Source: Gammaproteobacteria bacterium
Lineage (GTDB): Bacteria > Pseudomonadota > Gammaproteobacteria > S012-40
DNA length: 32,582 nt
Direction: 5' to 3'
NCBI GenBank assembly: GCA_029883265.1
Contig: JAOUJM010000025.1
Span: 1-32,582, forward strand
Within the stretch, counting starts at the first letter, position 1. Each line of letters opens with the position of its first letter. This document shows positions 3,079 through 32,346 of this stretch, in pieces. A program made the position numbers and the translations under genes. The notes beneath the pieces are model-generated. The model was not told the origin of the DNA. It saw nothing but the letters and a program-made list of their open reading frames with translations, and did not search any database.

Positions 3079-4056
3079 CTAGAACATTTGCACCACCATC
3101 ATGGCTGCTGCTGCCTGTTCAGGCCCTCCAAAATGCAAACCGTCAGTGAGTATCAACTCATACAATCCGGGCATAACACTGACATCCACGGTAAATCCTG
3201 GAAATGCTGCGAGGGAACGTGGAGAGCCAAAATTTGTCCGATGTAAAAATTGAAAAGGATCATTCCAAGCACTAGCTCTCAAATCAATCCCGGCAACCCC
3301 TAAGCCATCGACACCATGACAGCTCACGCAATTAAAACCTGAACCATCAACCCGGACAATAGGAGACACGCCCGCTGCATCAATTAGACTGTTGTAAACC
3401 GCATTTCCCTCGGCCATATCACCTAGGCTTCCACTACTCGGTGCGCGAATATACATATGGGTATCATAGATTTCGTTAACTACAAAATCAGCAACGTCGA
3501 CCATGGCTTGCGGTGTTAAAAGGGCGGAATAATTATGCACGTTCTGCACGGCAGCGCCATCCCACATGTCAAAGCCATTAAATAATAAACCAATAACGAA
3601 TTCCTCGTCCCTCCCACGTACATCCTGTAGTTCCAATAAATTATTGGTCGCACCGTTATTAAAGGAAAACACGCCACCTTCATAATCAAAACCATGACAT
3701 TGACTGCAACGCCAGCTATCCGTATCCGTAATACCGGCAGGTCCAGAGGTGGCAATTGCAACAATAGGATTCGGCCCAGCAACTGCCTGATCCAGTTCTA
3801 TAGTAAAATCATCATAAATCCGTGCACCACGGACATGACTTGGTTCAAGTCCATCATGCCCTTGCTTGATAGTGATTGGGGCCGCATTAGATGACACTCG
3901 CTCACCATTATTTCGAATAATATATCCGTTTACTTCGGCAGAAGTTTCAGTCGTTGGTCCTGCAATTGTTGTTGGTGGTATATGTTCAGAACAAGCAAAA
4001 ATAAGTAGCAAACTTACGGTTATTACCGCAAATTGCAATTGACGAACGCAATACAT
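3079..4056 (-). CDS. Dihaem c-type cytochrome lipoprotein
   Basis: The 325-residue product starts with a hydrophobic signal ending in a lipobox-like LIFAC, so Cys22 is the probable lipidated residue and the protein is probably anchored in an envelope membrane. Two haem c attachment motifs are visible: CSQCH at 117-121 and CVSCH at 243-247, each followed by G and acidic residues as in class I cytochrome c domains. The haem domains are about 125 residues apart, consistent with two fused domains; residues 25-110 match no domain I recognise. The likely role is periplasmic electron transfer. No oxidase, dehydrogenase or haem-lyase gene is adjacent, so the redox partner is unknown. It has its own terminator and probably its own promoter in the 166-base upstream gap. 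Confidence 0.85.
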   Translation of the reverse strand: MYCVRQLQFAVITVSLLLIFACSEHIPPTTIAGPTTETSAEVNGYIIRNNGERVSSNAAPITIKQGHDGLEPSHVRGARIYDDFTIELDQAVAGPNPIVAIATSGPAGITDTDSWRCSQCHGFDYEGGVFSFNNGATNNLLELQDVRGRDEEFVIGLLFNGFDMWDGAAVQNVHNYSALLTPQAMVDVADFVVNEIYDTHMYIRAPSSGSLGDMAEGNAVYNSLIDAAGVSPIVRVDGSGFNCVSCHGVDGLGVAGIDLRASAWNDPFQFLHRTNFGSPRSLAAFPGFTVDVSVMPGLYELILTDGLHFGGPEQAAAAMMVVQMF

Positions 4057-4222: not shown

Positions 4223-5179
4223 TTAAGTTAGTTGCTTAAGTCCCGTTTCTTGGTCAATAACAGGTCTATAGGCTAGTTCTCGCTTAGCTCTGTCAATTTT
4301 ATAACGCCGTGGCATGGCGACAAATGCTACGTCAAAGCGGGTAATCGGCGGTGTCGATTTCAAGCCAAATAGACGCCACAATGTTTCACAACCAATTGCT
4401 GATAGTAGCGCCAAAATCCGAGGAATATTTTTATTTGGGTTACTTATTTGTTTGGCTTGAAACAATTTGCTTAAAAAGGTTTGCACTGTCTGAGGTGCAT
4501 CATCGGTAATAAAATAAACGCCTTTATCTTGACCGGATTCACAGGCTAAAACACAGGCATGAGCCACATTGTCTACGTGAACCATTTCAAACATACTGCG
4601 GCCATGGTCCACCCACATAAATTGCTTTGACGCTATTTTCGCCTTCATGGTTTCCAATGCCGCCACACCCACCCCCCAAATAAATGTGGGGCGCAAAATA
4701 ATAACTTGAGTTGCACTATCTTGTTTAAGCAGCAATTGTTCAGCTTGTTTTTTCGCTAGACCATAATAAGAATTCGGCTGTTTCGGATAGGGTTCCGATT
4801 CGTCAATATCCAGCAGTGGCTTTCGGTCTTGTAGTACCGACTCAGAGCTAATGAAAACAAACCGTTTGACGGTAGCCTGTTCAGCCGCTTGAAACAAACC
4901 TTGCGTCGCTTGAACAATGCCTTGTTCATAGAGTCGCCACGGCCCCCAAAATATTAGCGGCGCAGCACAGTGAATAACTACATCGATAGATTCAAGTGTG
5001 GATTTCCAGGAGTTAAGATTTTCCAAATCACCAAGCACCACCCGAATATTATCGTTCTCATATGCAGACGCTTTATTTGCATCACGCAGAAGAATAGTGG
5101 CATGCCAGCTTTTTTGTAAAACCTGTTTTAAAACCCTGGCGCCCAAAAAGCCGCTTGCGCCTGTAATAAAAACCCGCAT
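4223..5179 (-). CDS. NAD(P)-dependent epimerase/dehydratase (extended SDR)
   Basis: The 318-residue protein has the N-terminal Rossmann motif GASGFLG at residues 7-13, an acidic GDL at 50-52, the SSES active-site strand near 111-114 and the catalytic YxxxK as Y139 and K143. These define an extended short-chain dehydrogenase/reductase, closest in feel to 3-beta-hydroxysteroid dehydrogenase/isomerase-like or nucleoside-sugar epimerase members. The substrate cannot be assigned. It is the last gene of the ten-gene run: its ATG shares one base with the stop of the upstream exported-protein gene (TAATG), implying translational coupling. With a phospholipase D-type enzyme two genes upstream, a lipid or glycan substrate is an inference only. 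Confidence 0.88.
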   Translation of the reverse strand: MRVFITGASGFLGARVLKQVLQKSWHATILLRDANKASAYENDNIRVVLGDLENLNSWKSTLESIDVVIHCAAPLIFWGPWRLYEQGIVQATQGLFQAAEQATVKRFVFISSESVLQDRKPLLDIDESEPYPKQPNSYYGLAKKQAEQLLLKQDSATQVIILRPTFIWGVGVAALETMKAKIASKQFMWVDHGRSMFEMVHVDNVAHACVLACESGQDKGVYFITDDAPQTVQTFLSKLFQAKQISNPNKNIPRILALLSAIGCETLWRLFGLKSTPPITRFDVAFVAMPRRYKIDRAKRELAYRPVIDQETGLKQLT

Positions 5180-6297
5180 TAGATACCGACCGCGCCGCCT
5201 AGGCCTTCAATGATTTTTTCAAAGTCGGCATTCCAATCCAAATAAAACCTAACCACGTCTTGATCATCTTTTGGATCAGTGCCGGGAATGGCCATATTAA
5301 CGATTCCACCAAAGAAAATTCGTGAACCATTGGCAAACTTATACATGGGTAATTGCAAACGTAACTCCATGCGTTTTGAGGCCAAACCTTCGCTTTGGCC
5401 TAATAGTGCATCAAAATAAGTCTCGGGGTTGATTGCATTACGAAAGCCTAAATACACTCGCGCACGGGATCGTGTTTCATCATCCCGTTTACGTATACCT
5501 AGAGAAAGTATCGGCCCGATTAAATCGCTTAGTGTCGCATCCAGACGAATCAAAGAATGAAACAAGGGCACAAAAGTCTCTACATCAGCTTCTAGCGTAT
5601 TTGTTAATACTGTTTCAGCCTCAGAGCCGGTTTGCTCACCGGAACTGGTGAGCTGCAAGGTGGCACGCATATGCATGCCATAGTAATGAATACCTTCACG
5701 CATAATTGGGGTCGGCCCAAATCGCCGATAGGCCATTAAACCAATGCGAGGAAATCCGCGCTGGAAAATCTCGGAAAAGGTGATGTACTCAAATCCTAGA
5801 TTAAAGGCATGATACTGACGATGATAATTATTTTCCGGGTAATCAAAATCGAGATAAAGCGGCTCTAACAATTTATTATGCCCTGTAAATTCGATCAGAT
5901 TTGTAATTTGATCGACATGGTCTTTTCCTTCGATTATGCGTTGCTCAACATAATGTCTTTCTTCATCGCGCAACTGACCATTATTCGCCAACGCCATATA
6001 TTGCTTTAAGGCTTCTAGCAAATAACGCCCCTTAATACGCATAGCTGTTTCCAATTCCATACGATTATTTTGACAAAGTTGATTGGGGTAACACGCAAGA
6101 ATTTGATTAAGATTCTGCAAGTGAGCATGGCTGGCACAAGGGCAAGCCGGGGGTTTAGGTGTGTCGATATCAGTTTCAGCATATGCAGTTTTTGCACTAA
6201 AAAAACTGAATACAAACAAAATCCCTATGAGTGTGTATACTTGCTTAAATTTAGAAAAATTTAAAATGGAACAACAAAACCGTTGCATATAACTCAC
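5179..6297 (-). CDS. Exported protein of unknown family, Cys-rich N-terminus, possibly outer membrane
   Basis: The 372-residue product has a signal peptide with a hydrophobic core around residues 21-34 and a probable cleavage after AYA at 40. All cysteines of the mature chain sit in its first 35 residues (C52, C54, C69, C75); the rest is free of cysteine. Residues 80-140 look helical, and about 160-370 alternates polar and aromatic residues in short strand-like stretches, as in small beta-barrels or beta-sandwich envelope proteins. I do not recognise the family. The annotated start is a GTG overlapping the upstream phospholipase D stop by four bases (GTGA); an ATG three codons in (6288) is an alternative. 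Overlaps on both sides tie its expression to PLD and the epimerase. Confidence 0.75.
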   Translation of the reverse strand: MSYMQRFCCSILNFSKFKQVYTLIGILFVFSFFSAKTAYAETDIDTPKPPACPCASHAHLQNLNQILACYPNQLCQNNRMELETAMRIKGRYLLEALKQYMALANNGQLRDEERHYVEQRIIEGKDHVDQITNLIEFTGHNKLLEPLYLDFDYPENNYHRQYHAFNLGFEYITFSEIFQRGFPRIGLMAYRRFGPTPIMREGIHYYGMHMRATLQLTSSGEQTGSEAETVLTNTLEADVETFVPLFHSLIRLDATLSDLIGPILSLGIRKRDDETRSRARVYLGFRNAINPETYFDALLGQSEGLASKRMELRLQLPMYKFANGSRIFFGGIVNMAIPGTDPKDDQDVVRFYLDWNADFEKIIEGLGGAVGI

Positions 6298-7424
6298 CTA
6301 CGTGTAACCCGATCCAATAGTATATCAACTTTCCCCCAAAACCACTCCAAGATTTTAGACAACCAGGGACGCTGATGCCAGCTTGAATATTGAAAACGTT
6401 GACTATCCGAAAAACCGAGCTCAAACCAGTCCGTCACTACTTTGGCAAACTGAGGATCATCGATTTCAATATTGGCTTCCAAATTCCAACGAAAATTCCA
6501 GCGGTCAATATTACTCGAACCAATGCTAGCCCAATTATCACAAAGCAAAACCTTTGCATGCAAAAAACGTGGCTGATACTCATAAATATTCACACCGGCC
6601 TTTAGTAAGCTTGCGTAAAACCGACGACCGGCATGGCGCACCGCAGGATGATCTGTGAAGCGACCCGGTAATAATAAATTCACATGAACACCACGTCGAG
6701 CTGCACTTTTCAAGGCACGTCGGATTTTATGGGATGGAACAAAATACGCGGTTGATAAAAACACACTACGTTCGACCGAACGCAAACGTTTAAGCAAGGA
6801 AGTTTTAATTTCTTGTGTGCCTTTACCTTGAGTCTGGGTCAAGCGCCCGGTCACGCCATGCACATATTGGTGAACATTAAAGGGCTGGATTTTTAGAATA
6901 TCGCCTTGGGCTTGCCTCCAAGTATGCAAAAACATATCGACGCAATCAGTTAAGCAAGGCCCTTTTAACTGCACCATGAGATCATGCCAAGGCTTGTGGT
7001 TTTTTGCATATTGCGCATAGAAGTCGTCTGTTAAACCACTTCCACCAATGAAACCGACTTTGGCATCAACGACTAGTAATTTACGGTGATCACGAAAAAA
7101 TGCACGCCGAAGTCGGCCATAACGCATGGGATTGTAATAATAAGTTGATATGTTTTGTCGATTGAGCAACTCACGATCACTCATTTTTAATCCACGGCAA
7201 CCGAAGTCGTCCAGGAGTATATAAACGCTAACGCCGTTGTTGGCAGCTTGAATACAGGCATGAATGAAAGCTGAACTAATATGCCCCGATTCAACCAAAT
7301 ACATTTCCAACAGGACAACATGTTTAGCCTGCTCGATCGATTGAATCATGACTGGAAAATAACGACTGCCATCCACTAGCAAATCAAAAACATTTCCATC
7401 ACGCCAAGGATAACGATAATCCAT
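6294..7424 (-). CDS. Phospholipase D-family protein, cardiolipin synthase-like
   Basis: Two HKD catalytic motifs are complete: HRKLLVVD at 113-120, followed by GFIGGSG, and HAKVLLCD at 289-296, followed by SIGSSNID. This is the bacterial cardiolipin synthase/phosphatidyltransferase pattern, and 376 residues fits the shorter ClsB-type proteins that lack the N-terminal membrane segments of ClsA. The expected reaction is phosphatidyl transfer at the inner membrane, giving cardiolipin or a related lipid. It starts 14 bases after the ubiB stop and ends overlapping the next gene, so it appears co-transcribed with ubiquinone genes. The enzyme class is certain; the exact acceptor is not. Confidence 0.9.
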   Translation of the reverse strand: MDYRYPWRDGNVFDLLVDGSRYFPVMIQSIEQAKHVVLLEMYLVESGHISSAFIHACIQAANNGVSVYILLDDFGCRGLKMSDRELLNRQNISTYYYNPMRYGRLRRAFFRDHRKLLVVDAKVGFIGGSGLTDDFYAQYAKNHKPWHDLMVQLKGPCLTDCVDMFLHTWRQAQGDILKIQPFNVHQYVHGVTGRLTQTQGKGTQEIKTSLLKRLRSVERSVFLSTAYFVPSHKIRRALKSAARRGVHVNLLLPGRFTDHPAVRHAGRRFYASLLKAGVNIYEYQPRFLHAKVLLCDNWASIGSSNIDRWNFRWNLEANIEIDDPQFAKVVTDWFELGFSDSQRFQYSSWHQRPWLSKILEWFWGKVDILLDRVTRR

Positions 7425-7438
7425 GCGTTGATTCCCAT

Positions 7439-9094
7439 TTAAAGTCGTCTAATTAAACGTACTAGCAGACTCAGAACAACAAGAGTACCGGCTGCAAAAA
7501 ACCAACTCCATAAAGACAAACTGGCAACAACTGGGACTGCGTTATTTGCTAGCAGTAAACTCAATACAAAAGCGATCAAACTGGCGATAAAAAAAGAAGA
7601 ATAGACAATGCTAGTAATCAAGGTTTTGCTGTGACCTGTTTGCGTTTCTGCTTGGAGGTTGGATCTGGCATCAGATCTTTGATTTAGCGCTGACAACGCG
7701 TTATATACTAGATCTGGCACTTGTGGCAACTGCTCCAACCATCCGGGAAATTGTTGACGTAACGATTTTAAAACCGCTTTTGGCCCCGCACGATCCAACA
7801 TCCAGTTTTCAAGAAAAGGCTTAGCCGTCTGCCATAAATCCAGCTCCGGATTTAACTCACGACCCAAACCTTCAATATTCAGCAATGTTTTTTGCAATAA
7901 TACTAATTGCGGCTGAATTTCCATATCAAAGCGTCGCGCCGTTTGAAACAAACGTAACAACACTTGTCCAAACGAAATATCTTTTAAGGGTTTTTCAAAA
8001 ATAGGCTCGCACACCGTGCGAATCGCAGATTCGAATTCTTCGATACGGGTTCCTGTGGGCACCCAACCTGACAACACATGCAATTCTGCTACGCGACGAT
8101 AATCACGATTAAAAAAAGCAAGAAAATTTTCTGCAAGATACCGCTGATCTTCTGTCGTCAGACTACCAACGATACCAAAATCAACGGCGATATACTGACC
8201 ATCATTAGCAACGAAAATATTCCCCGGATGCATATCCGCATGAAAAAAATTATGTTTAAACACTTGGGTGAAAAATATTTCCACGCCTCGTTCAGACAAG
8301 GATTTCAAGTCAATACCGGCTTGCTTTAGAGCATTCACATCACCAATGGGTATTCCAGATATGCGCTCCATCACCATCACTGAGTGACGCGTGTAGGACC
8401 AATAGATATCTGGAATATATAGATCTTTGGAGTTCTTAAAATTACGCCGCAATTGAGACGCCGACGCGGCTTCTCGCTGCAAGTCTAATTCATCGATAAT
8501 GGTTTTTTCATAGTCGGCGACTACTTCCTTGGCGCGTAAGCGACGCGCTTCCGACCAATAACGTTCCGCCAAGTCCGCTAATGTATGCAACAAAGAAATA
8601 TCGCGTTTAATAATTTTTTCAATGCCAGGACGCACCACCTTAACCACGACGCGCTCACCGCTATTCAGTGTTGCCGCATGCACTTGCGCAATAGACGCAG
8701 ATGCCAACGGTTTATCCTCAAACTCAGCGAATAAATTTTCAATAGAGTCACCGAGTGCTTGCGAGATTCTTTGACGAGCATCGTGAATCGAAAAGGGTGG
8801 CACCTGATCCTGCAATTTTGCCAGTTCCTGGGCGATATCAACTGGCAATAAGTCAGGACGAGTCGATAACATTTGCCCAAACTTAATGAATATTGGCCCC
8901 AAATCTTCTAAACATAATCGAATCCGCTCAGCCTGGGGTTGCTGGTGACGCCGAAACCAACGCCAAGGAAAAATCAACTGTACCATTCGCACAGGACGAA
9001 ACAAGTGGGTTGCTAGAATAATCTCGTCTAGGCCATGACGCACTAATACACGATTAATATGCAGCACTCGAAACAACTGCGCAGGTTTAATCAC
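7439..9094 (-). CDS. ubiB: Ubiquinone biosynthesis atypical kinase/ATPase UbiB
   Basis: UbiB is a membrane-bound ADCK/ABC1-type protein with ATPase activity that supports coenzyme Q synthesis. The 551 residues match the E. coli length (about 546). Diagnostic elements are the KxGQ motif as KFGQ at 71-74, the alanine-rich nucleotide loop ASASIAQVH at 131-139, the catalytic loop HADMHPGN at 285-292 and the metal-binding DFG at 305-307. Two hydrophobic C-terminal segments occupy about residues 495-548. The start is a GTG sharing one base with the ubiJ stop (TAGTG), consistent with coupling in the ubiE-J-B order of gammaproteobacteria. Confidence 0.97.
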
Positions 9095-9708
9095 TAACTC
9101 GATTCTCCTGCTTGCCTTAATTTTTGCACTCGCTGACTCAAACGATCAACCTGTCCTCGCAAATCGTCGACTTGATACAAAAAACTTTCAACTTCATATT
9201 TTGATGGTACATAATTTTTTTCATGTTGCACAAACTCAGCACTATCCATAGCTAAATGCGCTCCTGCTTTTTTTATCCATGAAAAAAAATCTCGCCCCAT
9301 CGTCGCCAGTTGATGCGCAGCAACATCACCAAGCATATGAGACAAACCTTCTTCCCAATCAATATCTAATTGGTTCAACAGATGTTGTACTTGGCGACCC
9401 AATTCCATATCACCTTCAATAACAATATCACCACTAAAAAATGCTTGTTTCTTTTTAGTCAACACATGGTGGCCAAGCGTGAATAATTTACCGCGTATTG
9501 TTGCATCAGCGACGTGTTCAATTTCATTAAGTAGTTGTATGCCGTCAAAATTCATTGCGATGAAAATTTGCAAATCAATACCCTGAATATCCAGGCATAC
9601 CACGTTTCCGCTCAAGCGCTGAATACGCGCCATGGAATCCGGATCGAGTGCAAGCGCACGGTTCAATGCAATTTCAAGCGTGGATAACAAAGCGTGAGGA
9701 ATTCTCAT
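9094..9708 (-). CDS. ubiJ: Ubiquinone biosynthesis accessory factor UbiJ (SCP2 domain)
   Basis: This 204-residue protein has an N-terminal SCP2-like lipid-binding fold (about residues 10-115, with [16 protein letters not shown] near 90-105) and a C-terminal coiled coil with heptad-like spacing over about 170-200. That is the layout of UbiJ, a lipid-binding scaffold of the soluble Ubi metabolon. Its position directly before ubiB supports the call. It overlaps the RDD-gene stop by four bases (ATGA) and its stop overlaps the ubiB start. In many gammaproteobacteria it follows ubiE directly; here one gene intervenes. Confidence 0.93.
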
Positions 9709-10193
9709 TGCATTTCCTTCAACAATTGTCGTAAAGATTTTTGTGATTCATCTTCTTCGTTCCGGATCGGCTGATTGACAACAACGGTACGTGCCAATTT
9801 GTCGTGAAATCCTTGTTTGCGTTTATCCCATAAGATCCACAAAAAACCTAAGCCCAACGGTAACAGTGAAACAAAATAGGCAAGATAACGCACACCGGCT
9901 TGCAACCATGTCACTGCTTGACCAGTATCTGCATCAACAACATAACAACCTAAAATCAATTTCCCGGGCGTCGCTTGCCACCGCACCCACATCACAACAC
10001 AGACTAAAAAAAATAAAAATTGTTCAAACCACTGATGCACATCCCAGGAAAACAATACCGTATCAGAAAATTGACTATTAACACTACGACCAAACACTAA
10101 ACCACTGATTAAACCAAACACTAGGGTAAATAATATTCCATCAATCAATTGCGCCACCAGGCGACGCCAGGGTTCGGCATAGGTTTGATTCAA
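9705..10193 (-). CDS. RDD-family integral membrane protein
   Basis: The 162-residue protein opens with [12 protein letters not shown], the Arg/Asp signature of RDD proteins, and has three hydrophobic stretches at about residues 15-33, 55-66 and 100-121. The second helix is followed by [11 protein letters not shown], also typical. RDD proteins are small membrane proteins of mostly unknown role; some have been linked to ion transport. The start is TTG at 10193, supported by a GAGG nine bases upstream and by a four-base overlap with the ubiE stop (TTGA). It lies between ubiE and ubiJ, an unusual insertion in this otherwise conserved order. A ubiquinone-related role is inferred from position only. 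Confidence 0.85.
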
Positions 10194-10948
10194 ATTTTAT
10201 AACCTCGATGCAAAGCCACTATGCCGCCGGACATATTGCTATAGTCACAGTGACTAAAGCCTGCCGCTTGCATCATGGCCTTCAACTCTTCTTGCGAGGG
10301 ATGCATGCGAATAGACTCGGCCAGGTATTGATAACTTTCTGCATCATTGGCCACCAACTTCCCAATGCGAGGTAGAAGTTGAAACGAGTAAAAATCATAA
10401 ATAGGTTTTAGACCAGGCAAGGTGGGTTTAGAAAATTCCAAAACTAGTAATTTTCCGCCGGGCTTTAACACCCGATACATGGAAGCCAAGGCTTGATCCT
10501 TGTGCGTAACATTGCGCAAACCAAAACCAATGGTAATAAAATCAAAATAATTATCAGGAAAAGGCAAATTTTGTGCGTCTGCTTGCACAAAACGGGTATT
10601 AGCCACTTGCCCTTCATTCATCATGCGATCACGACCCAAGCCCAACATGGAACTATTGATATCAGACAAAACCATTTCACCGGTATCGCCTAACTTAGGT
10701 GCAATCAATGCGGCAATATCTCCCGTACCTCCGGCCAAGTCTAAAGCTTTTTGTCCGAGTCGAGGTCGCACAAATTCAAGTGTGATACGTTTCCAAATTC
10801 GATGCACGCCGAGTGACATTAAATCATTCATCACGTCATACCGTTGTGCCACCGAATGAAATACACCGGCCACCTTTGATGCTTTTTCTTCGGTTTTAAC
10901 TTGTTGATAACCGAAGTGAGTGGTGTTATCAGACTTGGAATCGCTCAT
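10190..10948 (-). CDS. ubiE: Demethylmenaquinone/2-polyprenyl-6-methoxybenzoquinol C-methyltransferase UbiE
   Basis: UbiE is the SAM-dependent C-methyltransferase of ubiquinone and menaquinone synthesis. The 252-residue length is standard. The N-terminus has the family signature [19 protein letters not shown] (27-45), the SAM glycine motif [10 protein letters not shown] lies at 68-77, and [12 protein letters not shown] and LEFSKP are further family blocks. A GGAG lies four to five bases before the ATG. It follows the DUF971 gene by nine bases and begins the ubi part of the ten-gene run. Confidence 0.98.
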
Positions 10949-10957
10949 AATACTCCT

Positions 10958-11326
10958 TTAATTGGCTTTTTCTTTTCGTGAATAACCAGCGGTTTGCAAA
11001 CGCTGTAAATATTCCTGCCAATAGCTCGCTTGGTTTGTTCCAAGGTCATAAAGCGTTTCCCAAGAATAAATACCCGTATCATGCCCATCATCAAACACCG
11101 GTTTGATTGCATAAGTACCAACAGGTTCGATGCGTTCAATATTGACATCTTCCTTACCTAATTGCAGCACTTCCTGCCCAGGACCATGTCCACGAACTTC
11201 AGCAGAAGGCGAATATACTCGCAAGTATTCACAAGACAGATTAAAGCGCTGACCGTCGTCAAACGCAACTTCAAGTACGTGGGATTTCTGATGTAACTTT
11301 ATTTCGGTCGGTGTATGTTTTGACAT
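10958..11326 (-). CDS. DUF971 domain protein (GBBH-like N-terminal fold)
   Basis: This 122-residue single-domain protein has the DUF971 blocks: TEIKLHQKSHVLEVAFDDG at the start, then LSCEYLRVYSPSAEVRGHG, GTYAIKPVFDDGHDTGIYSW and YLQRLQTAGY. The domain resembles the N-terminal domain of gamma-butyrobetaine hydroxylase and, in other proteins, is found near iron-sulfur assembly factors; its biochemical role is not settled. It sits between hslU and ubiE with nine-base gaps on both sides, an arrangement common in gammaproteobacteria. Confidence 0.9.
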   Translation of the reverse strand: MSKHTPTEIKLHQKSHVLEVAFDDGQRFNLSCEYLRVYSPSAEVRGHGPGQEVLQLGKEDVNIERIEPVGTYAIKPVFDDGHDTGIYSWETLYDLGTNQASYWQEYLQRLQTAGYSRKEKAN

Positions 11327-11335
11327 GTTTTTTCC

Positions 11336-12673
11336 CTATAGGATGTATCGACTTAAATCTTCATCTTCGACTAAAGTGGCCAAATGTTGGTCCACATAAT
11401 CACGATTAATGGTAACGCTTTCTCCAGATTTATCTGATGCTTCAAAAGAAATCGTTTCCAGCAAACGCTCTATAACAGTATGCAAACGTCGCGCGCCAAT
11501 ATTTTCGGTGCGTTCATTCACTTCCCAGGCAACCTCGGCGATTCGTGCAATTCCGTCAGCTTCGAATAGGAGTTCAACACCTTCGGTTTGCATTAAAGCT
11601 TGATATTGTTTAGTCAAGGATGCATCGGGTTCCGTTAGAATCCTCACGAAATCCTTAGTCGTCAATGCGCTGAGTTCAACGCGAATAGGTAAGCGTCCTT
11701 GTAACTCAGGAATCAAATCTGAAGGTTTGGATAAATGAAATGCACCCGAGGCGATAAATAAAATATGATCGGTTTTAATCATGCCATATTTAGTGGATAC
11801 GGTGCAGCCTTCAACCAAAGGCAACAAATCTCTTTGCACCCCTTCACGTGAAACATCGCCACCACTGGTTTCACTGCGTTTACAAATTTTATCCATTTCA
11901 TCAAGAAACACGATGCCATTATCTTCCACGGCCTGTAATGCGATTTGCTTGATCTCATCTTCATTGATCATTTTCGCGGCTTCGTCTTCAGTGGCCAATT
12001 TCAACGCTTCTTTAACTTTTAGCGAACGAGTTTTGGTGCGGCCTGAGTTAAGGTTTTGAAAAACTGACTGCAATTGACTGGTCATGTCCTCCATGCCCGG
12101 TGGCGTCATGATTTCCACGCCTATCGCCGGTTCACGCAATTCCACTTCCACATCTTTATCATCGAGCTTACCTTCGCGCAGCATTTTTCGAAACTTTTGC
12201 CGTGTAGCCGATTGTTCTTCGCTGGCGGGCCGTTCATCATAGATATTCGGTGTACGCGCAGGTCGTAGCAAAGCATCAAGAATTCTTTCTTCTGCCGCTT
12301 CTTCTGCTCGATGACGTACATGTTTCATGGCATTTTCACGCGTGAGTTTAATTGATATATCAATGAGGTCACGCACAATGGATTCCACGTCGCGACCAAC
12401 ATAACCGACTTCAGTAAACTTAGTTGCTTCAACTTTTACAAACGGGGCATTGGCTAAACGTGCCAAACGCCGCGCAATTTCAGTTTTGCCCACACCAGTA
12501 GGGCCAATCATTAAAATATTTTTTGGGGTAATTTCCGGGCGCAAACTTTCTTCGACTTGGGAGCGTCTCCAACGGTTACGCAAAGCAATCGCCACCGAGC
12601 GTTTCGCTTCGGTTTGACCAATAATATGTTTATCCAGTTCTTGTACGATTTCTCTTGGTGTCATTTCAGACAT
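11336..12673 (-). CDS. hslU: ATP-dependent protease ATPase subunit HslU
   Basis: HslU is the AAA+ unfoldase ring of the HslUV protease. The 445 residues fit the family (E. coli 443). Walker A is GPTGVGKT at 57-64, the pore loop GYVG is at 90-93, Walker B VFLDEMD is at 255-261, and the sensor/arginine-finger region contains NIGARRLHT. The insertion (I) domain lies between about 110 and 245. The C-terminus ends in DLSRYIL, the tail that docks into HslV and activates it. It follows hslV after 18 bases. Confidence 0.98.
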
Positions 12674-12691
12674 AGCGCTTTATTAAACCTT

Positions 12692-13237
12692 TTATGCTGT
12701 TGTTAATTCTTCAATGGTTAAATTCTGATTAGTATAAATGCAAATATCACCAGCGATTCGTAAAGATTTTTCCACAATTTCACGGGCGCTGAGTTCACTA
12801 TCATCCAATAGCGCACGAGCCGCAGCCTGTGCGAAACCACCGCCGGAACCAATCGCAATTAAACCATCGTGTTCAGGTTCAATCACATCGCCATTACCGG
12901 TAATTATCAAGGAACTCTGTTCATCGGCCACTGCCAGTAAGGCTTCAAGACGGCGTAATGCACGATCTGTTCGCCAATCTTTGGCTAATTCCACGGCAGA
13001 ACGCACCAAATTGCCCGAGTGCTTTTCCAGTTTCCCTTCAAAACGCTCAAACAAAGTAAACGCATCAGCAGTACCGCCAGCAAAACCTGCGATAACCTTA
13101 TCGTGATACAAACGGCGCACTTTGCGGGCATTGCCTTTCATGACGGTATTACCCAAACTCACTTGGCCATCACCACCAATGACCACAGCATTACCTCGGC
13201 GCACTGAACAAATCGTTGTGCCACGCATTTGTTCCAC
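12692..13237 (-). CDS. hslV: ATP-dependent protease peptidase subunit HslV
   Basis: HslV is the N-terminal-threonine peptidase of the HslUV complex. The longest frame starts with ATG at 13243, but an AGGAG lies only one base from that ATG and seven bases from the in-frame GTG at 13237. The GTG gives MEQMRGTTI, close to the usual N-terminus of orthologues, so I chose it (181 residues). Processing after RG would expose the catalytic Thr7. Other family blocks include [46 protein letters not shown] and [15 protein letters not shown]. It heads the ten-gene run. Confidence 0.96.
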
Positions 13238-13243
13238 TGACAT

Positions 13244-29962: not shown

Positions 29963-30367
29963 TTAAATGTGATTCACAAATCCTTTTAACACCAAATCGG
30001 TAAAGCTGACGATACCAACAACTTCGCCATTTTCAACCACAGGTGCGCGAGAAATATCAAAACGATCAAACAAGCGTGCACAATAACGAATATCCATGGA
30101 TGGATCAACATTCATCACGGGTTTGGTCATGACTTCATAAACATTAATACGATCAGCCGACAGGTCTTTGGCTAAAACTTTCCGTGCAATATCGGATAAC
30201 AGCAACATACCATACTCATCATTATCATGACGTTTTTGCACAATCAGACACTTGGTTTCCACATGCTGCATAGTTTTCAATGCTTGACTAATTGTATCCA
30301 TACCGTCGACTAAATCAAATTGGGTTTTCATGACTTCTTTAACTCGTATCAATTTGCGTTCGCTCAT
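29963..30367 (-). CDS. Tandem CBS domain protein
   Basis: This 134-residue protein consists of two CBS domains, about residues 10-68 (VKEVMKTQF ... GMLLLSDIARKVL) and 75-132 (VYEVMTKPVMNV ... GIVSFTDLVLKG). Stand-alone CBS pairs bind AMP, ATP or SAM and regulate partner enzymes or transporters. Its ATG overlaps the PII-like stop by four bases (ATGA). Its place directly after the PII-like gene in a transporter operon suggests a second sensor for the same membrane complex, by inference. Confidence 0.92.
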   Translation of the reverse strand: MSERKLIRVKEVMKTQFDLVDGMDTISQALKTMQHVETKCLIVQKRHDNDEYGMLLLSDIARKVLAKDLSADRINVYEVMTKPVMNVDPSMDIRYCARLFDRFDISRAPVVENGEVVGIVSFTDLVLKGFVNHI

Positions 30368-30714
30368 AGCTCGTCCTCCACAAGTTTGGATAAAGCGCTT
30401 ACTTGATGCGATACGCCGACCGCATCTTCCACATTAATTTGAAAAGCAATTCCAGCACCGGAGTTTTCATCCATACTGGCGACTAGCTCGATTTTCTCAA
30501 GAATTTTCCTCGACAAATGTTCTTCTACTAAAAACAGAATCATATCGCGTTGCGTCTCAAGCGAAAGCCCAAAAAATGTTTTTACTGGTTCCAGCCCCTC
30601 ACCACGGGCGTGATTAATAACCGTCGCCCCTGTTGCGCCTTCCTTACGAGCCGCGTCCATCACATCTTCGGTGCGATCATCGGGTACTAATGCAATAATT
30701 AATTTAAAGTGCAT
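30364..30714 (-). CDS. PII-like (GlnB-superfamily) signalling protein
   Basis: The start at 30714 has GGAG seven bases upstream and lies two bases past the upstream stop; the longer frame reaching into the membrane protein gene is rejected. The 116-residue product begins MHFKLIIALVPDDRTEDVM, as PII-like ferredoxin-fold proteins do. It has a loop region GEGLEPVKTFFGLSLETQRD in the T-loop position and closes with ENSGAGIAFQINVEDAVGV. The loop lacks the usual PII uridylylation tyrosine context, so it is a PII-like relative rather than GlnB or GlnK. PII-like proteins often regulate a neighbouring transporter in response to nucleotides; here the neighbours are two DUF1538 proteins. Confidence 0.85.
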   Translation of the reverse strand: MHFKLIIALVPDDRTEDVMDAARKEGATGATVINHARGEGLEPVKTFFGLSLETQRDMILFLVEEHLSRKILEKIELVASMDENSGAGIAFQINVEDAVGVSHQVSALSKLVEDEL

Positions 30715-30716
30715 GA

Positions 30717-31499
30717 TTATGCTCCTTTTTGTTTTGCTCGTTTTTGCTTGAGCGCTAACATGAATTCGGTGACTTGCGCATAAGCCATAACAGTAATCAT
30801 TGGAAATAAACAAGTAAATGCAATCAAACCAAATCCATCCAATAGGGGACTTCGTCCGGGTACAGTACTCGCCAAACCAAGTCCCAAGGCGGCAATTAAT
30901 GGTACCGTCACGGTCGACGTCGTCACACCACCCGAATCATAGGCCAACGCAATAATTGATCGAGGTGCAAAAAAAGTTTGAATTACGACAATGACATAAA
31001 GCGCAATGATGTAATAATGCAACGGCGTACCCGTGACAATACGAAAAGTTCCGAGTGAAACACCAAGCGCTGCGCCGATGCCAACAGCAATACGCAAACC
31101 CCAAACACTAATCGCCCCGGCCGACACTTGATTCGCTTTCATGGCGACTGCAATGAGTGAAGGCTCTGCCATGGTGCAGGCAAAGCCAATCGAAAAAGCA
31201 AAAAGATAAACCCATTTGTATTGTAACCAGTGAAATTCCAATCCTTCGGGATTAATAAAACTAGGATGAGTTAATTGTTCCGCCATGGTTTTGCCAAGTG
31301 GGAATAAGGCTTTTTCCAAACCAACTAGAAAAAAACCAAGCCCAAGCAAGACCAAACCAAAGCCTATCAGTACCCGTTTGAAATTTGGAATAGGTTTGCG
31401 GATAACAAAAAACTGAAAAAACAAAATAATCAACGCAATTGGCAACACATCCAAAATGGTTTGCGCAGTAACGGTAAAAAGCTCTATAAGTAACTCCAT
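30717..31499 (-). CDS. DUF1538 integral membrane protein, second subunit
   Basis: The 260-residue protein has about six to seven hydrophobic segments and the DUF1538 signatures GLEKALFPLG (60-69), TMAEPSLIAVA (109-119), [11 protein letters not shown] (186-196) and DGFGLIAF (221-228). It is a paralogue of the next gene upstream, with the AYDSGG motif at the same residue number. From memory, a DUF1538 pair in Halomonas (named UmpAB) has been reported to act as a two-component sodium, lithium and potassium/proton antiporter; I could not check that here. The C-terminus is basic (KQKRAKQKGA). Its ATG shares one base with the upstream stop (TAATG). Confidence 0.88.
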   Translation of the reverse strand: MELLIELFTVTAQTILDVLPIALIILFFQFFVIRKPIPNFKRVLIGFGLVLLGLGFFLVGLEKALFPLGKTMAEQLTHPSFINPEGLEFHWLQYKWVYLFAFSIGFACTMAEPSLIAVAMKANQVSAGAISVWGLRIAVGIGAALGVSLGTFRIVTGTPLHYYIIALYVIVVIQTFFAPRSIIALAYDSGGVTTSTVTVPLIAALGLGLASTVPGRSPLLDGFGLIAFTCLFPMITVMAYAQVTEFMLALKQKRAKQKGA

Positions 31500-32230
31500 T
31501 AAACGAGCACCCCGTAAACCATAACGAATATCATTGGGAACAATGACGCAAATGCAATCAAACCAAATCCATCCAACATGGGATTCCGCCCTTTGATACT
31601 AGAGGCAAGCCCAACGCCCAGTGCTGTTACCAGTGGTACTGTAATCGTTGACGTCGTCACGCCACCTGAATCATAAGCGATACCAATAATTTCTTTCGGC
31701 GCAAAAGCGGTCATAACGACTACACCAATATAACCTGAGATAATTAAATAGTGAATCGGCCAGCCCTTAATAATTCGAATCACGCCGACAACAATAGCCG
31801 TGCCCACCGATAACGCCACAGTCAAACGCAGACCAAACGCATAATCATCTCTAGCCATTTCTGTATTGGCAACAATACCTGCTTGCGCGGCGACATTCGC
31901 AGCTTCACCCGCGACCGCAATCAACGTAGGTTCCGCTACAGTCGTACCAAAACCCAGTGAAAAAGCAAATGCCAACAGCCACCAAATATTTCCTTTTCGG
32001 GCAAAAGCAAAAGCCATGTTTTCGCCTAACGGAAAAAGTCCCATTTCCAAACCACGAATAAATAACGAAAGGCCTATGGCCACCAGAAATGCGCCAATAA
32101 TGATTTCCAGAATATTGGGCAATGTTTGCGGAAGTACAAAAAACTGAAAAAAAGTGACTACTGCAATAATAGGCAGTAGATCGCGAAAGCTTCCAAATAG
32201 CCAAGCGCTCCATGCATATATCGATTTCAT
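31499..32230 (-). CDS. DUF1538 integral membrane protein, first subunit
   Basis: This 243-residue protein (ATG at 32230; a GTG one codon earlier is possible) carries [33 protein letters not shown] and DGFGLIAF in the same order as its downstream paralogue. The extra region between the AEP motif and the next helix ([21 protein letters not shown]) distinguishes the two. Conserved acidic, serine and threonine residues inside membrane segments suit ion binding. It is the first gene of the five-gene unit; the start has only a weak ribosome site, and no clear promoter could be assigned in the 116 bases before it. Confidence 0.88.
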
Positions 32231-32346
32231 CACTATAGTAAACTGTCAAGTTATTGGCTTATCTATAGGGTAGCAGGAAATGCTCCAAATGTAATAATCG
32301 TTTTAAATCTCAAATAATTAACTGAATGTTTTATAAAACTATAAAA

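Follow-up and report, generated by a model that had tools for sequence, protein, structure and literature searches.

A cardiolipin-synthase-like phospholipase D gene lies directly behind ubiB in one family of Gammaproteobacteria

The window analysed here covers positions 1 to 32,582 of contig JAOUJM010000025.1 (assembly GCA_029883265.1) from a gammaproteobacterium of the GTDB lineage S012-40. On its minus strand ten genes follow one another in the order hslV, hslU, a DUF971 gene, ubiE, an RDD gene, ubiJ, ubiB, a gene for a phospholipase D-type protein (PLD), a gene for an exported protein and a gene for a short-chain dehydrogenase/reductase (SDR). The successive gaps from hslV to the SDR gene are 18, 9, 9, −4, −4, −1, 14, −4 and −1 bases, with a maximum of 18. 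UbiB is assigned by its equivalog model (NF003404, 783.1 bits versus a cut-off of 667), and the names hslV, hslU, DUF971 gene, ubiE and ubiJ are those that we take to apply. A reading of the sequence without database searches had placed the last three of these genes at the correct coordinates, with the PLD gene starting 14 bases past the ubiB stop, and had regarded PLD, the exported protein and the SDR as one functional unit. Comparison with related genomes points instead to the ubiB-PLD pair.

The family sample comprised 13 genomes including that of the window (G000), some of the other 12 being incomplete. The PLD gene directly follows ubiB in eight of them (G000, G003, G004, G005, G006, G008, G009 and G010). 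Measured from the ubiB stop to the likeliest PLD start, picked by hand, the distances are +14 (G000), +4 (G004), −25 (G005), −4 (G006), +1 (G008), −4 (G009) and +4 (G010), so that seven of the eight pairs lie between −25 and +14; in G003 the distance is +59 or +98. In five of these genomes (G004, G005, G006, G008 and G010) the pair is present without an adjoining gene for the exported protein. The ubiB-PLD pair is a real feature at the level of the family. A literature search, which had most subscription papers outside its reach, returned no report of such a ubiB-PLD operon and no paper naming both ubiB and clsB.

Outside the family the PLD gene lies elsewhere. Among 369 genomes drawn from the class, 67 non-family genomes carry PLD at E ≤ 1e-60 and 66 of these also have a ubiB match, and the two genes are adjacent in none of the 66. 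They share a contig in 14 of the 66, at a spacing of at least 42 kb. The corresponding Fisher test (8/9 versus 0/66) treats related genomes as independent and is a rough guide. In 5 of the 67 genomes PLD lies within 500 bases of the contig start, where a neighbour could be hidden (contig ends were left out of this count); the locus of one of the five, G225, was read and has PLD near mpl. Among 21 outside loci that were read (20 chosen by hand, and G046), PLD is found within about 3 kb of mpl and of a gene for a 170-residue protein, located ahead of mpl, in 15, and six have no such neighbour; ubiX is visible in ten of the outside loci, mpl and UbiX being assigned by NCBIfam. Genes that are presumably ribonuclease-D-like intervene in four loci, and the 170-residue protein, in its copy at L076 2337-2846, has no Pfam match.

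The same neighbourhood exists in the family without PLD. The mpl gene was found in 12 of the 13 family genomes and is followed by ubiX in all 12; the gene for the 170-residue protein precedes it in 11, and the twelfth locus (G007) begins at a contig start. No PLD match was found at this cluster in the 12 genomes, with flanks fetched up to 1.5 kb and the upstream flank readable in 11. The simplest reading, in which we infer the direction, is that the PLD gene of this family left the surroundings of mpl-ubiX for its place behind ubiB. Most of the PLD tree lacks resolution, with 4 of 27 inner branches well supported and a bootstrap that had not settled, and it gives no demonstration of a foreign origin of PLD. 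The GC contents of the PLD, exported protein and SDR genes (0.416-0.437, versus 0.42 for the window) likewise give no sign of recent import of the three genes.

The PLD protein contains two HxKx4D motifs (H113/K115/D120 and H289/K291/D296), which are invariant in nine sequences. In common with ClsB and unlike ClsA, it has no predicted membrane span, since no 19-residue hydropathy window reaches 1.4 (maximum 1.33). It is the sole protein with two PLDc_2 matches in five genomes (G000, G004, G005, G008 and G010), a count that concerns PLD-type enzymes, as cardiolipin synthases of the CDP-alcohol type were not searched for. The other PLDc_2 protein of G000 has one single match in a 1004-codon frame on another contig, and there is none in the remaining four genomes (G010 being 78% complete). 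A phmmer search against solved structures revealed no relative of PLD at 0.001. Its best NCBIfam matches are the models for ClsB and for bacterial cardiolipin synthase, at scores below both cut-offs. We call the protein cardiolipin-synthase-like and do not call it ClsB.

Table 1. Genes of the hslV-to-SDR run in the window and the evidence for their assignment
Feature	Position	Strand	Evidence
hslV, hslU, DUF971 gene (head of unit; names presumed)	10958..13243	-	ORFs; order conserved in family genomes
ubiE (name presumed from sequence)	10190..10948	-	ORF; position conserved
RDD-family membrane protein, between ubiE and ubiJ	9705..10193	-	PF06271 2.9e-25
ubiJ (SCP2 domain; name presumed)	9094..9708	-	PF02036
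ubiB, two C-terminal hydrophobic helices	7439..9094	-	NCBIfam NF003404; hydropathy windows at 496 and 530
PLD-type, cardiolipin-synthase-like protein, 376 aa	6294..7424	-	PF13091 1e-42; NCBIfam; HKD motifs; hydropathy
Exported protein	5179..6297	-	signal-peptide-like start; helical hairpin and ten strands modelled as barrel
SDR oxidoreductase of the 3-beta-HSD/OleD kind	4223..5179	-	PF01073, PF01370, NF042422, 3wj7

The last three genes had been described as joined by a GTGA and a TAATG overlap. The latter is present as stated at the junction of the exported protein and SDR genes. The GTGA sequence at the preceding junction is also there, although its role as a start-codon overlap is less likely: a Shine-Dalgarno-like AGGTGA, which includes the PLD stop codon, precedes an in-frame ATG (6288) by 5 bases. 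For this reason the exported protein more likely starts at this ATG, nine bases further in, than at the overlapping GTG at 6297, which would make the PLD-exported gap five bases, and the GTGA is likely part of the ribosome-binding site.

Transcription of the three genes from the hslV-ubi unit, as was suggested from the sequence, is likely, given the gaps of −4 to +18 over ten genes and the tight ubiB-PLD spacing in the family. Between 3900 and 9200 there are 15 promoter-like sites (11.0 in shuffles, standard deviation 3.0) and nine terminator-like sites (5.9, standard deviation 2.5). They include a minus-strand promoter-like site at 6381-6352, just upstream of the exported protein gene, and terminator-like sites within ubiB and within PLD, all at or little above chance, and a transcript start inside the unit could also exist. 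A heat-shock promoter upstream of hslV was considered and set aside: with a presumed consensus, the 397 bases before hslV hold no sigma32-like site above chance (287 of 300 shuffles were as good). The next gene past the SDR, 166 bases on, encodes a cytochrome-c-like exported protein (3079-4056) and is probably a separate unit, with a promoter-like site just upstream at 4193-4165 (TTGGAA-17-TATACT). Further up, the RDD gene between ubiE and ubiJ was found in nine of ten family genomes in which this interval was read, with no match in G006; G046 has a partial match.

The exported protein has a signal-peptide-like N-terminus with one hydrophobic window at residue 20. It has no match in Pfam, NCBIfam or PHROG, and none under E 0.9 among the sequences of solved structures. 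A model built from six sequences predicts helices at about 63-134 and ten strands between 161 and 358 (mean pLDDT 69.5, pTM 0.53). With VIA-align, the top ranks for this model are OpcA (2vdf, Z 13.1), a designed ten-strand barrel (12.5) and Pla (2x4m, 12.0). The same list contains soluble nitrobindin barrels at Z 10-10.8, and for this reason the fold alone does not prove a place in the outer membrane. Foldseek returned mostly outer-membrane barrels with low TM-scores. The model, of middling quality, suggests a barrel that is probably located in the outer membrane, and it points to no function. Assignment to a known lipid enzyme was rejected, as there is no family match and PagL (E 9.8e-04) and OMPLA (E 2.0e-02) appear only among the general barrel matches.

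This protein was found in seven of 56 genomes searched, namely G000, five family members (G003, G004, G007, G009 and G010) and G045. A profile search of the 369 class genomes gave four carriers: G000 and G045, with G207 and G082 as more distant matches. Five loci, those of G004, G007, G009, G010 and G045, came out of a pattern scan over 84,980 species genomes. It therefore appears, on the model and these searches, to represent a rare, small and unnamed barrel family. The relatives in G207 (L069) and G082 (L070), which belong to other families, are frames of 397 and 350 codons whose N-terminal part is comparable; neither genome has PLD or ubiB close by, these genes being distant or on different contigs. 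The gene adjoins PLD in three of the seven carriers (G000, G003 and G009) and is apart from it in four. In G004 and G010 it stands after a gene that we take to be secF-like and before a presumably glyA-like gene, in G007 it lies near a contig end away from PLD, and the G045 copy is situated between genes of the opposite strand. In G003 (L051 198-5240) the barrel gene is followed after 14 bases by genes for a LolA_like protein, two FtsX/MacB permeases, an ABC ATPase and a protein of 376 residues that has no match in Pfam.

The SDR had been labelled an epimerase. It is an SDR and does match the Epimerase model (PF01370, 1.9e-28), close behind the best Pfam match, 3-beta-HSD (PF01073, 2.9e-31); the best NCBIfam model is OleD (NF042422), far below its cut-off at 158.7 bits versus 580. 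A solved relative is 3wj7 (3e-19). Counterparts were found in G003 (48%) and G077 (54%), with weaker ones in G037 (35%) and G149 (33%). In these four best relatives, the ones whose loci were read, the gene has opposite-strand neighbours and no close same-strand neighbour, the G149 copy being near a contig end. The SDR gene adjoins PLD and the exported protein in the window only.

We propose that the PLD gene moved behind ubiB, that its lipid product is tied to the UbiB ATPase and ubiquinone synthesis, and that the barrel and SDR genes came later, an explanation whose chances we regard as about even. In the ancestor of the family, or early within it, the PLD gene would have left its place near mpl-ubiX and become the last gene of an hslV-hslU-DUF971-ubiE-RDD-ubiJ-ubiB operon, directly after ubiB and co-transcribed with it. 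At the inner membrane the enzyme would make cardiolipin or exchange the head groups of phospholipids, and a supply of anionic lipid made together with UbiB may be coupled to the UbiB ATPase and so to ubiquinone synthesis. The barrel gene and the SDR gene would have been added at the operon end; they look like later additions that are expressed with the operon and stand outside the PLD pathway. The proposed coupling draws on COQ8, the mitochondrial relative of UbiB, whose ATPase activity increases with CoQ intermediates and with cardiolipin according to passages of two papers, both citing earlier work (PMC7615680; PMC12938788). A stronger form, in which the one PLD-type cardiolipin synthase of these cells acts as a dedicated partner of UbiB and the product it makes locally switches on the UbiB ATPase, so that local anionic lipid controls ubiquinone synthesis, seems to us unlikely. 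If it were true, the PLD enzyme would be linked to ubiquinone genes at two separate places in genomes, here and at its usual site near mpl-ubiX.

Several observations weigh against this explanation. PLD scores 229.2 bits to the ClsB model (NF008427, cut-off 281) and 219 bits to the bacterial cardiolipin synthase model TIGR04265 (cut-off 290), below both, as do three relatives within the family and a copy from a different one. The ubiB-PLD pair was not seen in 5 of the 13 family genomes: the PLD gene of G007 lies at another locus among neighbours of its own, the sole PLD seen in G001 is a 29% one, again away from ubiB, the ubiB gene of G002 is cut by a contig end and no PLD match was found in that genome, and the matches in G011 and G012 are fragments or distant paralogues. 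The tree neither establishes nor rejects a single clade for the ubiB-linked PLDs (p-AU 0.324, or 0.32 with G007 added). The window PLD shares 55% identity with its closest family copy (G008) and 56% with an outside copy (G252); as it is no closer to its family than to the latter, nothing points to specialisation of the ubiB-linked PLDs. One yeast study (PMC13392021) found loss of cardiolipin to be neither necessary nor sufficient for the change in CoQ synthesis that it describes; Fmp30p, a mitochondrial enzyme that has phospholipase D activity but belongs to a different superfamily, acts there on CoQ synthesis by way of PI. This result weakens the cardiolipin idea. Finally, gene order alone does not demonstrate a functional link.

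A serious rival, which we consider possible though the balance tips against it, is that PLD moved to the ubi operon neutrally, or was retained so as to be expressed along with the heat-shock protease HslVU when the membrane is under stress, and makes cardiolipin with no specific tie to UbiB. It gains from hslV-hslU at the head of the unit and from the ubiB-linked PLDs being no more alike than they are to outside copies. The barrel gene, which ends another conserved gene set in G004 and G010, suggests that genes of this family attach to conserved operons without a clear functional reason, and the induction of E. coli ClsB in late log and stationary phase, described in PMC8027125, implies that control by stress or stage is normal for such enzymes. 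Against this rival, be it a neutral move or plain co-expression, stand the missing sigma32-like signal before hslV and the tight ubiB-PLD junction in seven of eight genomes. The enzyme itself may be another transphosphatidylase or a hydrolase, for example one forming phosphatidylglycerol (PG) from phosphatidylethanolamine (PE) by head-group exchange. E. coli ClsB forms cardiolipin from two PG and, at low levels, also PG from PE and glycerol (PMC8027125), and this, with the scores below both cardiolipin synthase cut-offs, agrees with such an activity; the two intact HKD motifs, the near full-length ClsB match and the status of PLD as the sole protein with two PLDc_2 matches in five genomes make it rather improbable.

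The three-gene unit of the sequence-only reading has fared worse. Its conservation in related genomes had been set beforehand as a test, and the three genes are together in none of the other 12 family genomes, so that the trio is found in the window only. A single envelope-lipid pathway of PLD, the exported protein and the SDR, with the PLD product being moved or modified by the exported protein, is very improbable, and the related genomes already go most of the way to refuting it. Tight packing in the window, the adjoining PLD and barrel genes of G003 and G009 and the LolA_like-FtsX-FtsX-ABC set behind the G003 barrel gene argue for it; against it stand the barrel genes apart from PLD in G004, G007, G010 and G045, the four SDR relatives beside neither partner and the five ubiB-PLD pairs that lack an adjoining barrel gene. 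A lipid-export role of the exported protein, once deduced from its PLD partner, is weak, given the copies behind secF-like genes in G004 and G010 and at other places in G007 and G045, and the G003 gene set leaves the idea itself open.

At 29963-32233 of the window, four genes overlap or are almost contiguous: a tandem pair of DUF1538 genes, one P-II-like gene and one with a CBS domain. This set looks like a regulated membrane transport unit.

The core order ubiE-ubiJ-ubiB is common elsewhere. The present locus shares these genes and their order with the cluster of Gammaproteobacteria and differs from it in the RDD gene between ubiE and ubiJ, the PLD tail after ubiB, and hslVU and the DUF971 gene in front. 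With E. coli ClsB (YbhO, NF008427) PLD has in common the two HKD motifs, the absence of a membrane span and a match over residues 5-355 of 376, whereas it stays under the equivalog cut-off and its gene is located behind ubiB or, in other families, near mpl-ubiX. The modelled barrel resembles the OpcA/OmpT-type barrels in size and in its ten strands (OpcA, rmsd 3.7 over 180 aligned residues; Pla, rmsd 3.8 over 173), but has 3-9% identity over the aligned residues and an extra helical hairpin before the barrel, and we claim no membership. The SDR matches the OleD 2-alkyl-3-oxoalkanoate reductase model over its full length, at a score far under the cut-off. The role of UbiB/COQ8 proteins, and the reason why cardiolipin stimulates their ATPase, are unsettled in the field. 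The stimulation of a UbiB-family ATPase by cardiolipin, in the passages of PMC7615680 and PMC12938788, concerns eukaryotic proteins, to which the bacterial UbiB is likened here by family. A family with a cardiolipin-synthase-like gene behind ubiB represents a natural and testable case for a link that these sources report so far for mitochondrial proteins.

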